Shown here piece by piece: positions 9,187 to 54,581 of a stretch of DNA of 64,000 nucleotides (position 1 is the first letter of the stretch; each line of letters opens with the position of its first letter). The stretch spans positions 1 to 64,000 of the forward strand of contig DATAIT010000098.1 in the NCBI GenBank assembly GCA_036262515.1, in the 5' to 3' direction. The notes below the pieces were generated by a model that saw nothing but the letters and a program-made list of their open reading frames with translations, was not told where the DNA came from and did no database searches. Made by a program: the position numbers and the translations under genes. The stretch is from Acidimicrobiales bacterium (lineage in GTDB: Bacteria > Actinomycetota > Acidimicrobiia > Acidimicrobiales > GCA-2861595).

Positions 9187-10209
9187 ATGGGCGGCAACGG
9201 CTCCGACGTGACCCTCGACCTCGACGGTCACGAGGTCAGCGTGACGAGCCCCGACAAGGTGTTCTTCGCCGAGCGCGGTGAGACCAAGCTGGACCTGATC
9301 CGGTTCTACCAGGCCGTCCGTGGGCCGCTGCTGGCCGCCATGGGCGGGCGACCGGTGCTGCTCCAGCGGTTCCCGGACGGCGCCGGGGGCAGCTCGTTCT
9401 TCCAGAAGCGCGTCCCCTCGTCGCGGCCGCCGTGGCTCCAGACGGTCGAGGTCAGCACGCCCAACGGCACCACCTCCAACGCGCTCGTGGCCGCCGACGT
9501 GGCCCACGTGGCCTGGGCCGTGAACATCGGCTGCCTCGGGTTCCACGTCTGGCCGGCCCGGGCCGATCGGCCCGACGTCGCCGACGAACTGCGCATCGAC
9601 CTCGATCCCACTCCGGGCGTCGACTTCGCCATGGTGCGCGACGCCGCGCTCCTCGTCCGTGACCTCCTGGCCGAGCTCGGGCTCACCGGGTGGCCCAAGA
9701 CGACGGGGAACCGCGGCATCCACGTGTACCTCCGCCTGGAGCCCCGGTGGGACAGCTACCGGGTGCGGGCCGCCGCCGTCGCCCTGGCGCGCGAGCTGGA
9801 GCGCAGGCACGCCGACCTCGTCACCGCCGCATGGTGGAAGGAGGAGCGGGGCCGGAGGGTGTTCGTCGACTTCAACCAGAACGCCCCGCACAAGACCGTC
9901 TTCGGCGCATGGTGCGTCCGGGCCCGCCCCGGGGCCCAGGTGTCGACGCCGTTCTCGTGGGACGAGCTCGACGCCTCGTTCCACCCGGACCAGCTCACGA
10001 TGGCGGTCGTCGCCGATCGGGTGGCCGCGGGCGGCGACCCGTGGGCGGGCATGTACGAGCGGCCGCAGTCCATCGAGCCCCTGCTCGCCATGTACGACCG
10101 CGACATCGCCGGGGGCCTCATGGACGCACCGTGGCCGCCCGTGTACCCGAAGCAGCCGAACGAGCCGCCGCGCGTGGCCCCCAGCCGGGCCAGAAAACCC
10201 AACGGCTGA
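9187..10209 (+). CDS. Stand-alone LigD-type primase-polymerase (first copy)
   Basis: 340 aa polymerase-domain protein of the archaeo-eukaryotic primase superfamily, like the PolDom of LigD that fills gaps and adds ribonucleotides during Ku-dependent end joining. The metal-binding region reads LRIDLDPTPGVDF (DxD near residue 138); KTTGNRGIHVY and RRVFVDFNQN carry the other conserved catalytic and nucleotide-binding residues. A clear AGGAGGGAGG ribosome binding site precedes the ATG. There is no ligase or nuclease domain. A second PolDom gene lies beside ku at 53649, and the two proteins are clearly different in sequence. This copy stands alone, so its role may differ (replication stress, primer synthesis), as proposed for actinobacterial Prim-PolC proteins. 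Confidence 0.88.
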   Translation: MGGNGSDVTLDLDGHEVSVTSPDKVFFAERGETKLDLIRFYQAVRGPLLAAMGGRPVLLQRFPDGAGGSSFFQKRVPSSRPPWLQTVEVSTPNGTTSNALVAADVAHVAWAVNIGCLGFHVWPARADRPDVADELRIDLDPTPGVDFAMVRDAALLVRDLLAELGLTGWPKTTGNRGIHVYLRLEPRWDSYRVRAAAVALARELERRHADLVTAAWWKEERGRRVFVDFNQNAPHKTVFGAWCVRARPGAQVSTPFSWDELDASFHPDQLTMAVVADRVAAGGDPWAGMYERPQSIEPLLAMYDRDIAGGLMDAPWPPVYPKQPNEPPRVAPSRARKPNG

Positions 10210-50602: not shown

Positions 50603-51571
50603 TCACGACCGGTGCGCGTTCCGGTACGCGGCCCACACCTCGGACGGCACCCGGCCCTTGGCACCGACCACCATCCCGCTGCGCAGCGCCCAGGCCCGGA
50701 CCTCCGCCGGCGTCGGGTCCGGAGGCGGGACGTCGTCGGCGGCGACGAGCCGGCCGGCCAGCTCGTCGGCGGGGGCGAAGGTGGACAGCTCGTGGAAGGC
50801 GGCGCCGAGGAACCGGTAGGCCCACTCCTCGGCGAGGGGGCGGGTCTCGCAGAACACGAGCGGGACCGACGGGTAGCGAACCTGGGCCTCGGCCAGGCCG
50901 TCGGCCACCAGGGCAGGGCGCACGCGGTCGAGCCGAAACACCGACGAGTACCGGTCCTCGACCACCACGGCGGCACGCGGGAGGCAGGCGAGATCGGCCA
51001 GCAGGTATCGCAGCCGGCCGGTGAGCAGCGTGGCGACCAGGTCCGGGAGGCTCTTGCGCTCCACGGCCGCCCCGATCCGCCCGTCGACCTCCACCGCGTA
51101 GTCGCCGGCCGGCAGCGCCCGCCGGGTGGTGTCGGCCTGCTGCTTGACGAAGCGCCACGGGTAGGTCTCGTGGGCGTCCACCACGATGCTGAGGCGGCCC
51201 CCGGCGCTGATGGCGCTGGGGACACCGACGTTGGGGCGGGCCTGCTTCGCCGTCCTCGGCGTCTGCCAGAAGATCGCCTCCCGACCTCCGCGGATGCGGG
51301 TGAACACGATCTGCGAGCGGTTCTCACGGCTGCGGTCGAGGACGAGGTCGACGGCGGCGCCCCGCCGCACGCACGACCGCACGGGCACCCGCTCGACGAT
51401 CTCCGGCGTGGCCGGCCATTCGTCTGCCCGGTGGCAGTACACCTTCGCCGTGCGGGGCCACGTGTCCTTGGCCTTGAGCACGACGCCGCCGCCGGGGAGC
51501 GGAAGCCGGATGAGGTAGGGCAGCGTCGACGCGGGATCCGGGTTCCTGGCCACGACGAACTCCGGACGCAT
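50603..51571 (-). CDS. ERCC4-nuclease/Lsr2 DNA-binding fusion protein
   Basis: 322 aa. Residues about 130-225 form an ERCC4 (XPF/Mus81-like) nuclease domain: a first Asp in SIVVDAHETYPWRF, GDYAVEV, then AAVERKSLPDLVATL with the full ERKxxxD motif (E171, R172, K173, D177) and GRLRYLLADLACLPRAAVVV. The last 35 residues, VRAWALRSGMVVGAKGRVPS and the following EVWAAYRNAH, match the C-terminal DNA-binding domain of Lsr2, which favours AT-rich minor grooves. The first 120 residues are unassigned. It is divergent from an ATP-dependent ligase with Ku and PolDom genes after it. A structure-specific nuclease for repair, or for foreign AT-rich DNA, is possible but not shown. Confidence 0.8.
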   Translation of the reverse strand: MRPEFVVARNPDPASTLPYLIRLPLPGGGVVLKAKDTWPRTAKVYCHRADEWPATPEIVERVPVRSCVRRGAAVDLVLDRSRENRSQIVFTRIRGGREAIFWQTPRTAKQARPNVGVPSAISAGGRLSIVVDAHETYPWRFVKQQADTTRRALPAGDYAVEVDGRIGAAVERKSLPDLVATLLTGRLRYLLADLACLPRAAVVVEDRYSSVFRLDRVRPALVADGLAEAQVRYPSVPLVFCETRPLAEEWAYRFLGAAFHELSTFAPADELAGRLVAADDVPPPDPTPAEVRAWALRSGMVVGAKGRVPSEVWAAYRNAHRS

Positions 51572-51674
51572 CGGCGCCAGTCTGGCCGCCGCGACAGCGG
51601 GCGACGTGGACACCGACGGCGATGCGGGGCAGATGCTCCGCCGTGTCCCGCCTCGCTCCCGGCGCACCGCCCCT

Positions 51675-51689
51675 TAGCCTCGGTGCGTG
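51675..51689 (+). promoter_or_regulatory. Leaderless -10 element for the DNA ligase gene
   Basis: TAGCCT (51675-51680) ends six bases before the GTG at 51687, with no ribosome binding site between. Confidence 0.5.
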
Positions 51690-52706
51690 CAGCCGCCCGC
51701 CATCGCGCCGATGCTGGCCAGCGCGACCACGCCGCCGCGCGACATGAGCGGCTTCCTCGTCGAGCCGAAGTGGGACGGCGTGCGCCTCGTCGTCACCGTG
51801 CACGGTGGGACGGTGACCATGATCACGCGCAACGGGCGGGAGGTGAGCTCGCACTACCCGGAGGTGGCCGCCATCGCCACCGGGCTCGACGGCCGGTCCG
51901 CCGTCCTCGACGGTGAGGTCGTCACCTTCGACGAGAAGGGCAGCACCAGCTTCCAGCGGCTGCAGCAGCGGATGCACGTGGCTCGGCCGTCGGCCGACCT
52001 GCTGGCCGAGGTGCCCGTGGTGCTCATGCTGTTCGACCTGCTGTGGCTCGACGGCGAGGACCTCACGGGACTCACCCAGGCGGAGCGGCGGCGGCGGCTC
52101 GAGGTGCTGGCACCCGACGGCCCGTTCTGGCACGTCACCCCACTGCTGCCGGTCGCGCCCCTCGACGAGCTGATGCAGGCCTGCTCGGAGGTGGGCATGG
52201 AGGGATTCGTCCTCAAGCGGGCCGACGCGACCTATCAGCCGGGGAAGCGGTCGTCCGCCTGGATCAAGCTGAAGTGCATCCAGCGGCGCGAGCTGGTCGT
52301 CGGCGGGTGGGCGTCGGGTCGGGGAGGGCGCACCGGGTCGATCGGATCTCTGGCGGTGGGCCTGTACGGCCTCGACCGCACCACCGGTGAGAGCGACGGG
52401 CGACTCCACTTCGTCGGTATGGCCGGGTCGGGCCTCACCCAGGACTGGATCCGCCAGCTGACGACCGTGGCCGAGAGGCTGGGCACCGACGAGAGCCCCT
52501 TCGCCGAGCAGATCGTGGGTGTCCGCTTCGTCGAGCCCCGGCTGATTGCGGAGGTCGCCTACTCGCAGGTCACCGACGGCGGCACCCTCCGGCACCCTCG
52601 TGTCCAGGGCTTCCGCACCGATCTCGACCCCACGGCCGTCGTCGCCGACGAAGAGCTCCAGGCCGCCTTCGACCGCCGCCCTGCGACGCTGCGGATCCGG
52701 GTCTGA
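51687..52706 (+). CDS. ATP-dependent DNA ligase (LigD/LigC-type ligase domain)
   Basis: 339 aa with an adenylation domain and an OB-fold domain. The lysine that carries AMP is in motif I, EPKWDGVR (near residue 30); motif III reads VLMLFDLLWLDG, motif IV EGFVLKR and motif V SAWIKLKC. It is the size of the free-standing ligase domain of LigD or LigC, which seal ends in Ku-dependent non-homologous end joining. ku follows after 45 bases and a polymerase-domain gene after that, so the LigD functions are split into separate genes here. Confidence 0.92.
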   Translation: MQPPAIAPMLASATTPPRDMSGFLVEPKWDGVRLVVTVHGGTVTMITRNGREVSSHYPEVAAIATGLDGRSAVLDGEVVTFDEKGSTSFQRLQQRMHVARPSADLLAEVPVVLMLFDLLWLDGEDLTGLTQAERRRRLEVLAPDGPFWHVTPLLPVAPLDELMQACSEVGMEGFVLKRADATYQPGKRSSAWIKLKCIQRRELVVGGWASGRGGRTGSIGSLAVGLYGLDRTTGESDGRLHFVGMAGSGLTQDWIRQLTTVAERLGTDESPFAEQIVGVRFVEPRLIAEVAYSQVTDGGTLRHPRVQGFRTDLDPTAVVADEELQAAFDRRPATLRIRV

Positions 52707-52751
52707 CCTCCTCACGTGGTTTCCGGCCGCCGGTCAGGGAACAATGGGGGT

Positions 52752-53606
52752 ATGGCCAGATCGATCTGGGGTGGCGCCATCAGCTTCGGGCTGGTGAACG
52801 TGCCCGTGAAGCTCTACACCGCCGTCCGCAAGAAGGACGTCCGCTTCCACCAGCTGCATGCTGCTGACGGCGCCCGCATCAACCAGAAGCGGGTGTGCTC
52901 GGAGGACGGCGATGAGGTCGCCTACGAGGACATCGTGAAGGGCTACGAGATCGCCAAGGGCCAGTACGTGATCATCGAGCCGGACGAGCTCGACTCGCTC
53001 GATCCCGAGACCACGCACACGATCGACATCGAGGACTTCGTGCAACTGGACCAGATCGACCCGCTGTTCTTCGACGCGTCCTATTACGTGCTCCCCGACG
53101 CCCGCGGCGAGAAGGCGTACCGCCTGCTGCTGGAGGCCATGCGCGACTCCGGCAAGGTCGGCATCGCCAAGGTCGTGATGCGCTCCAAGCAGTACCTGGT
53201 GGCCGTGCGACCGGTCGGCGAGGCACTGGTGATGTCCACCATGAACTTCGCCGACGAGGTGGTGACCCAGGACGAGCTCGACGGACTGCCCGGACCCTCG
53301 GAGAACGTGAGCGACCGCGAGCTGAAGATGGCCAGCCAGCTGATCGACTCGCTGTCCACCGACTTCGACGCCGCCCGGTACGAGGACACGTACCGGGAGA
53401 AGGTCCTCGAGCTGATCGAGAAGAAGGCGGAGGGCCAGGAGATCGTGGCGCCCAAGGAAGCCAAGGCCACCACGCCGGTCGTCGACCTCATGGCCGCCCT
53501 CGAGGCGTCCCTGGCCGCAGCCAAGGGCGAGAGCACGACCAAGAGCAAGTCCGCCTCCAAGAAGGACGGCGCCGAGGAGACCAAGGCGGGCAGGAAGGCG
53601 TCATGA
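52752..53606 (+). CDS. ku: Ku, DNA double-strand-break end-binding protein
   Basis: 284 aa bacterial Ku. The N-terminal MARSIWGGAISFGLVNVPVK is the family hallmark, and the beta-barrel region that encircles DNA follows. The C-terminal 40 residues are Lys/Ser/Ala-rich (KSKSASKKDGAEETKAGRK), like the lysine-rich tails that help DNA binding and threading. The ATG at 52752 fits this N-terminus; the frame extends 12 codons further upstream without family similarity. It homodimerises on broken ends and recruits the polymerase and ligase encoded next to it. Confidence 0.96.
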   Translation: MARSIWGGAISFGLVNVPVKLYTAVRKKDVRFHQLHAADGARINQKRVCSEDGDEVAYEDIVKGYEIAKGQYVIIEPDELDSLDPETTHTIDIEDFVQLDQIDPLFFDASYYVLPDARGEKAYRLLLEAMRDSGKVGIAKVVMRSKQYLVAVRPVGEALVMSTMNFADEVVTQDELDGLPGPSENVSDRELKMASQLIDSLSTDFDAARYEDTYREKVLELIEKKAEGQEIVAPKEAKATTPVVDLMAALEASLAAAKGESTTKSKSASKKDGAEETKAGRKAS

Positions 53607-53648: not shown

Positions 53649-54581
53649 GTGGCTGAGCGGGCGGCCAAGCCGTCCGCGCTCACCGTCGAGGTCGAGGGCC
53701 GCCGGCTCAGCCTGTCCAACCTCGACAAGGTCCTCTACCCCGAGACCGGCTTCACCAAGGGTCAGGTGATCGGGTACTACCAGCAGGTCGCGCCGTCCCT
53801 GCTGCCGCACCTGGCCGATCGCCCGCTCACCTTGAAGCGCTATCCCAACGGCGTCGACAGCAAGTTCTTCTACGAGAAGCGGTGCCCGAGCCACCGACCC
53901 GACTGGGTCGAGGTGGCGCCGGTGTGGAGCGGGCACAACCAGGACGTCGTGCCCTACTGCGTCGTGTCGGAGCTGGCCACGCTGGTGTGGGTGGCCAACC
54001 TGGCGTCGCTCGAGCTGCACACCTCGCTGTCGAGAGCCGAGCCGATCGAGCGCCCGACGATGATGGTGTTCGACCTCGATCCCGGCCCACCGGCCACCGT
54101 CGTGGAGTGCTCGAGGATCGCCCTGCGTCTCCAGGAGCTCTTCGAGCAGGTCGGCCTGCGGTGCGTGGCCAAGACGTCCGGCTCCAAGGGCATGCAGCTG
54201 TACGTGCCGCTCAACACCCCCGTCTCGTACGAGGGCGGTACCAAGGACTTCGCCCTGGCCGTGGCCCAGCTCCTCGAGAAGCGTTTCCCCGACGAGGTGA
54301 CGTCGATCATGAAGAAGGACGTCCGCCCCGGCAAGGTCTTCATCGACTGGAGCCAGAACGACCAGCACAAGACCACGGTGTGCGTGTACTCGCTGCGGGC
54401 CAGGCCCCGGCCCACGGTGTCGACGCCCGTGACGTGGGACGAGGTGGCCGCCACCGCCGAGTCGGGAGATCCCGAATCGCTCGTCTTCGAGGCGGACGCC
54501 GTCGTGGAACGGCTGGCCAGCCTGGGCGACCTGTTCGCCTGCCTCAACGAGGTCGAGCAGGCGCTGCCCAGACTCGCTTGA
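53649..54581 (+). CDS. ligD: LigD-type polymerase domain protein (second copy)
   Basis: 310 aa PolDom of the LigD family. The metal-binding MVFDLDPGPPATV region (DxD) and KTSGSKGMQLYVPL are clear, as is KVFIDWSQNDQHKTT. SNLDKVLYPETGFTKG is the typical N-terminal block. It starts at GTG 53649. It lies 42 bases after ku in the ligase-ku-polymerase gene set, so it is the likely partner for end joining. The 9187 gene is a second, more distant PolDom. The lnt-like gene starts inside its stop codon region. Confidence 0.93.
   Translation: MAERAAKPSALTVEVEGRRLSLSNLDKVLYPETGFTKGQVIGYYQQVAPSLLPHLADRPLTLKRYPNGVDSKFFYEKRCPSHRPDWVEVAPVWSGHNQDVVPYCVVSELATLVWVANLASLELHTSLSRAEPIERPTMMVFDLDPGPPATVVECSRIALRLQELFEQVGLRCVAKTSGSKGMQLYVPLNTPVSYEGGTKDFALAVAQLLEKRFPDEVTSIMKKDVRPGKVFIDWSQNDQHKTTVCVYSLRARPRPTVSTPVTWDEVAATAESGDPESLVFEADAVVERLASLGDLFACLNEVEQALPRLA

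Follow-up and report, generated by a model that had tools for sequence, protein, structure and literature searches.

The window analysed here, a stretch of 64,000 nucleotides from an Acidimicrobiales genome, carries on its reverse strand a gene, single-copy in that genome, for a protein that joins an N-terminal all-beta domain, an ERCC4/XPF-type nuclease domain and an Lsr2 DNA-binding tail, next to a gene set for non-homologous end joining (NHEJ) (Table 1). A reading made from the sequence only had placed this gene divergently from a ligase-Ku-polymerase set, 115 bases away, and coordinates and domain matches bear this out. The ATG start is backed by aligned relatives; the frame could be extended to a GTG at 51667, but relatives begin at the ATG instead. 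Ku may in truth start slightly further in, at an ATG some codons into the frame, before ARSIWGG. A second LigD-type primase-polymerase lies in the window at 9187-10209 (+), some 41 kb away from the Ku set and lacking a Ku neighbour, and the genome's own LigD 3'-phosphoesterase (PE) domain, with an intact HWD motif, is encoded on another contig (contig 5, 12758-13060), outside the Ku-ligase-PolDom set.

Table 1. Features of the ERCC4-Lsr2 locus and the adjoining NHEJ genes in the window
Feature	Position	Strand	Basis or remark
NTD-ERCC4-Lsr2 protein ORF, 322 aa	50603..51571	-	including stop; ATG at 51571
Lsr2 DNA-binding tail, residues 286-319	50615..50716	-	Pfam PF23359, 2.7e-8
ERCC4/XPF-type nuclease domain, residues 131-254	50810..51181	-	Pfam PF02732, 1.8e-14
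ERKxxxD motif, E171-R172-K173...D177	51041..51061	-	residue conservation across relatives
N-terminal all-beta domain, residues 1-105	51257..51571	-	conservation, AlphaFold, Foldseek
Divergent intergenic region, 115 bp, between ERCC4-Lsr2 gene and ligase	51572..51686	.	ORF positions
NHEJ-type ATP-dependent DNA ligase (LigD ligase domain)	51687..52706	+	TIGR02779, 233.5 bits
Ku	52716..53606	+	TIGR02772, 335 bits
LigD primase-polymerase (PolDom)	53649..54581	+	PF21686, 293 bits

The sequence-only reading had described an ERCC4 nuclease with a complete ERKxxxD motif and an Lsr2 tail. Both Pfam matches exceed their curated cut-offs, ERCC4 and Lsr2_DNA-bd are each matched by all 42 members of the family alignment, and the motif is present in the window protein as VERKSLPD. 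The observation is real and under-described. A third, conserved domain at the N-terminus had been overlooked. The active-site stretch reads GDY...VERKSLPDL, and the catalytic motif of the XPF family is GDXnERKX3D (PMC6320978). D132, E135, D157, E171, R172 and K173 occur in all 114 aligned members, across all three architectures, and D177 in all 86 Lsr2-tailed members, with N at this position in some of the others. Among solved structures, the 42-member family profile matches the Hef nuclease 1J22 (E=2.7e-9), and a Foldseek search with the nuclease returns 1J22 (1e-7) and 2BGW, the proteins found being Hef, A. pernix XPF and Mus81. No HhH family is detected in the 42 members at E<=0.1, and the Lsr2 tail stands there instead. 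By domain and motif, the family belongs to the ERCC4 nucleases as a divergent branch from bacteria, with an architecture that is not that of XPF/Hef. Nuclease activity, substrate and dimerisation are presumed for the window protein.

The tail is also recovered in a search of the window's own genome (6.5e-9), and the 42-member profile matches the Lsr2 structures 2KNG/6QKP at about 3e-7. The AT-hook-like triplet of the tail reads RGR in 69 of 85 relatives, KGR in 7 and RGK in 7, the window copy having KGR. In Lsr2, the Q/RGR motif reads the minor groove of AT-rich DNA (PMC4466236), and the tail may give the window protein a preference for, or guidance to, AT-rich DNA. The Lsr2 oligomerisation domain has no Pfam match in the 42 members, where the N-domain and the nuclease occupy that part of the protein, so filament-type silencing by the fusion seems unlikely; judged by its domains, the window protein is not an Lsr2 nucleoid protein. 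No other Lsr2 domain was found in the window's genome, which is about 98% complete. In PADLOC, the type II methyltransferase model PDLC03328 has at its end a stretch that matches the Lsr2 tail, which suggests that other DNA-modifying enzymes have also acquired this domain as a tail.

In a tree of 114 rows built from the N-domain and nuclease only, a single branch (support 94) sets off the 86 Lsr2-tailed proteins, which lie within the tailless ones. Acidimicrobiia and Actinomycetes thus probably owe the Lsr2 tail to a single gain, after which it was retained in 86 of 86 descendants. The tailless core is found in many actinobacteria (25 of 36 members in an unbiased sample lack the tail), and because it retains the same active site unchanged, the tail is regarded as an add-on. 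Five distant members form a separate clade with a winged-helix-like C-terminus (L136-L140; genomes G297, G161, G322, G266 and G219); they show about 35% identity and belong to genomes of 1.5-2 Mb.

The N-terminal domain is as conserved as the nuclease, with a mean column conservation of 0.74 for each. Within the Lsr2 clade W38, W52, R70, R80, R85 and W102 are invariant, and C46 and C67 are nearly so. AlphaFold predicts an all-beta fold (pLDDT 90.9 for the full-length protein and 89.9 for the domain alone), and in Foldseek this model has just two strong matches among solved structures, 3P43 (probability 1.00, TM 0.68, E=3e-3) and 3P4H (probability 0.98, TM 0.61, E=0.28), both with weak E-values and both archaeal LigD-type 3'-phosphoesterases. 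Homology to PE was rejected at the sequence level: the domain has no Pfam match, hmmsearch against PDB sequences was negative, and so was hhalign against LigD_N, with small alignments as with large ones. An initial hhalign run had reached P=0.049 in a register that looked plausible, which was not upheld by the larger test, where the score of 9.3-9.5 fell under the shuffled-column mean of about 11.5; the link to PE is therefore taken as a resemblance of fold. The LigD 3'-phosphoesterase has a His/His/Asp metal site (His42, His48 and Asp50) together with His84 and Tyr88 (PMC8656161). His42, His48, Asp50 and His84 have no counterpart in the N-domain, which lacks a conserved His at the expected places; in a hand-made register their likely equivalents are N10, P18, L20 and W52. 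If related to PE, the domain would be a non-catalytic PE-like module. A viral structure library gave one good match to the N-domain, an unnamed protein of 827 residues, and a PE tblastn against phages gave none.

The main form of the family is present in 32 of 396 sampled actinobacterial genomes, and with five distant carriers the family is found in 37 of 397. Its occurrence follows that of the end-joining machinery. Ku is found in 31 of the 32 main-form carriers, as against 176 of the 364 other genomes. The overlap expected is 24.1 when genomes are stratified by size (p=0.00015) and 27.5 when they are stratified by family (p=0.009), the latter a modest signal because some families are uniformly Ku-positive. 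LigD PolDom is present in all 32 carriers, including the sole Ku-negative one (G386), and in 192 of the 364 others (p=5e-9). The Mrr restriction nuclease, a control matched on size alone and not on family, occurs in 112 genomes, 70 of which are Ku-positive; among genomes of 2-5 Mb, Ku accompanies Mrr in 32 of 61 and the ERCC4-Lsr2 family in 23 of 24 (p=1e-4). On the other hand, the distant winged-helix-tailed members, five in all, include three whose genomes lack Ku. The majority of Ku-positive genomes lack the ERCC4-Lsr2 family gene, which is thus dispensable for NHEJ.

The gene usually stands alone among mostly random neighbours. Of 120 loci, 6 have parts of LigD in their flanks, against an expectation of about one, most loci being unlinked, and the immediate-neighbour tally gives PIN 5 and LigD Prim-Pol 2, with the others scattered. 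A conserved operon partner was sought and rejected, as even the commonest neighbour families reach no more than 12 of the 120 loci and look promiscuous. Direct head-to-head pairing with LigD is seen in three lineages: the window's genus, Tessaracoccus (78 bp) and Ornithinimicrobium sediminis (26 bp). The sequence-only reading had counted random gene neighbours as evidence against itself, and they are found in most relatives. A defence island is likewise rejected, with no defence family recurring among 115 immediate neighbours. The copy on a contig labelled Acidobacteria (L087) sits deep in the Ornithinimicrobiaceae branch, and the label is probably a binning error. Homologues in some close relatives (L007 and L013 of G004, and L004 of G017) have in-frame stops or frame changes, hinting at decay of the gene in the window's order.

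Plasmids carry the gene as well. It was found in 23 plasmid records; its carriers include plasmids of mycobacteria, Rhodococcus, Pseudonocardia and Streptomyces, among them 21-kb plasmids of M. intracellulare and M. lentiflavum, and the M. lentiflavum plasmid with the gene also encodes a MobF relaxase and ParA. These copies often adjoin recombinases, transposases or partition genes, and in the tree they are scattered tips inside the Lsr2 clade. A phage origin was rejected: no relative was found in IMG/VR or in actinobacterial phages, and phage records gave a single weak match, to the ERCC4 domain of a haloarchaeal virus at 30%.

The reading we tentatively prefer, at nearly an even chance, is that the window protein is an XPF/Hef-type nuclease, competent in catalysis, that trims ends or flaps as an accessory of actinobacterial Ku-LigD end joining. 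The link of the family to NHEJ is drawn from its genome-wide co-occurrence and the three recurrent head-to-head pairings. Archaeal NHEJ polymerases displace strands and leave unligatable intermediates in need of resection (PMC4797286), and the non-complementary 3' flaps of microhomology end joining are removed in eukaryotes by XPF-ERCC1 (PMC6320978). In the proposed scheme, Ku and the LigD parts would bring broken ends into alignment or anneal them, and non-complementary 3' flaps or blocked ends would result from gap filling or strand displacement. The ERCC4-Lsr2 protein would bind near the junction, where its beta-barrel N-domain, PE-like without PE catalysis, may aid end recognition and the Lsr2 tail, at the position of the (HhH)2 of XPF, may anchor the protein in the minor groove. 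The ERCC4 site would then cut the flap and leave a break that the ligase can seal. Both end recognition and physical contact with Ku/LigD are assumed in this scheme. Against a role in NHEJ speak the random neighbours in most relatives, and carriage on plasmids is equally compatible with an accessory or mobile gene.

The sequence-only reading had proposed two functions, targeted repair and simple defence; the former is favoured and the latter unsupported. The protein most likely serves repair rather than defence, because the family tracks Ku/LigD whereas the Mrr control does not, and defence neighbours are not enriched. Within repair, the main alternative is a structure-specific repair or recombination nuclease acting at forks, at crosslinks or in excision, with no special tie to NHEJ; its association with Ku would then reflect the lifestyle of free-living bacteria with larger, damage-prone genomes. 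We consider this unlikely. Nucleases of the ERCC4 family are almost without exception repair proteins (PMC11377751), the neighbours are mostly random, and the uniformly Ku-positive families leave a modest family-stratified signal, all of which agree with general repair; even so, the association with Ku withstands stratification by size and by family and is not shown by Mrr, and the immediate pairing with LigD recurs.

A stand-alone defence nuclease whose Lsr2 tail finds AT-rich incoming DNA has a slim chance. Its appeal lies in the AT-rich minor-groove reading of Q/RGR in Lsr2 (PMC4466236), of which the family retains RGR/KGR/RGK, in the patchy distribution, single-gene loci and plasmid spread typical of defence genes, and in the similar tail on the PADLOC type II methyltransferase model. 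However, that methyltransferase model matched the tail alone, the nuclease itself going unmatched in PADLOC, and neighbours show no recurrent defence family; many members are tailless with the same active site, the family tracks Ku unlike Mrr, and there is no obvious partner to spare the AT-rich DNA of the host. Least probable is an accessory nuclease of mobile elements, serving plasmid maintenance, resolution or competition and repeatedly captured by chromosomes: the plasmid records, including the 21-kb mycobacterial ones, and their recombinase, transposase and partition neighbours are in its favour, although most copies are found on contigs without mobile neighbours, the scattered plasmid tips point to a gene moving onto plasmids no less than off them, and the link to Ku/LigD would be left unexplained.

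Public annotation names such genes 'ERCC4 domain-containing protein' or 'histone-like nucleoid-structuring protein Lsr2', so the domains are already known to databases. A literature search found no paper combining an ERCC4 domain with Lsr2 and no study of the ERCC4-Lsr2 family, and the protein is probably a helper in DNA-break repair that has yet to be described. Published accounts attribute bacterial end joining to Ku and the multi-tool LigD, and XPF-type nucleases to eukaryotes and archaea (PMC8656161, PMC6320978); for XPF, bacteria are said to lack a direct ortholog (PMC6320978). That bacterial NHEJ has an unrecognised flap and end nuclease of the XPF type, made of a degenerate PE-like end-recognition domain, an active ERCC4 domain and interchangeable tails, is possible though on balance doubtful; under that reading the protein would play in bacteria the part that XPF-ERCC1 plays in removing flaps during end joining. 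If the end-joining role is true, the Ku/LigD pathway gains a dedicated flap-removing step through a widespread bacterial ERCC4 nuclease, and the Lsr2 DNA-binding module has been co-opted as the tail of a DNA-processing enzyme.

Among known systems, the window protein shares with XPF/Hef the ERCC4 domain and a complete GDXnERKX3D site. Unlike archaeal Hef/XPF and eukaryotic XPF/Mus81, it is bacterial and has neither a helicase nor (HhH)2; its family has an N-terminal beta domain of its own, and a tail that is of the Lsr2 type, winged-helix-like or absent. The N-domain is similar to LigD PE in predicted fold, whereas the catalytic residues and any profile similarity are missing. With Lsr2 and other xenogeneic silencers it has in common the C-terminal DNA-binding domain with its AT-hook-like KGR/RGR, although here this domain is a tail on an enzyme and, unlike that of Lsr2 nucleoid proteins, comes without the oligomerisation domain. 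Finally, while the ERCC4-Lsr2 protein is not a described component of Ku-LigD NHEJ and is missing from most Ku-positive genomes, its gene is adjacent to that system in the window's genus, is recurrently paired with LigD elsewhere, and co-occurs with Ku and PolDom.
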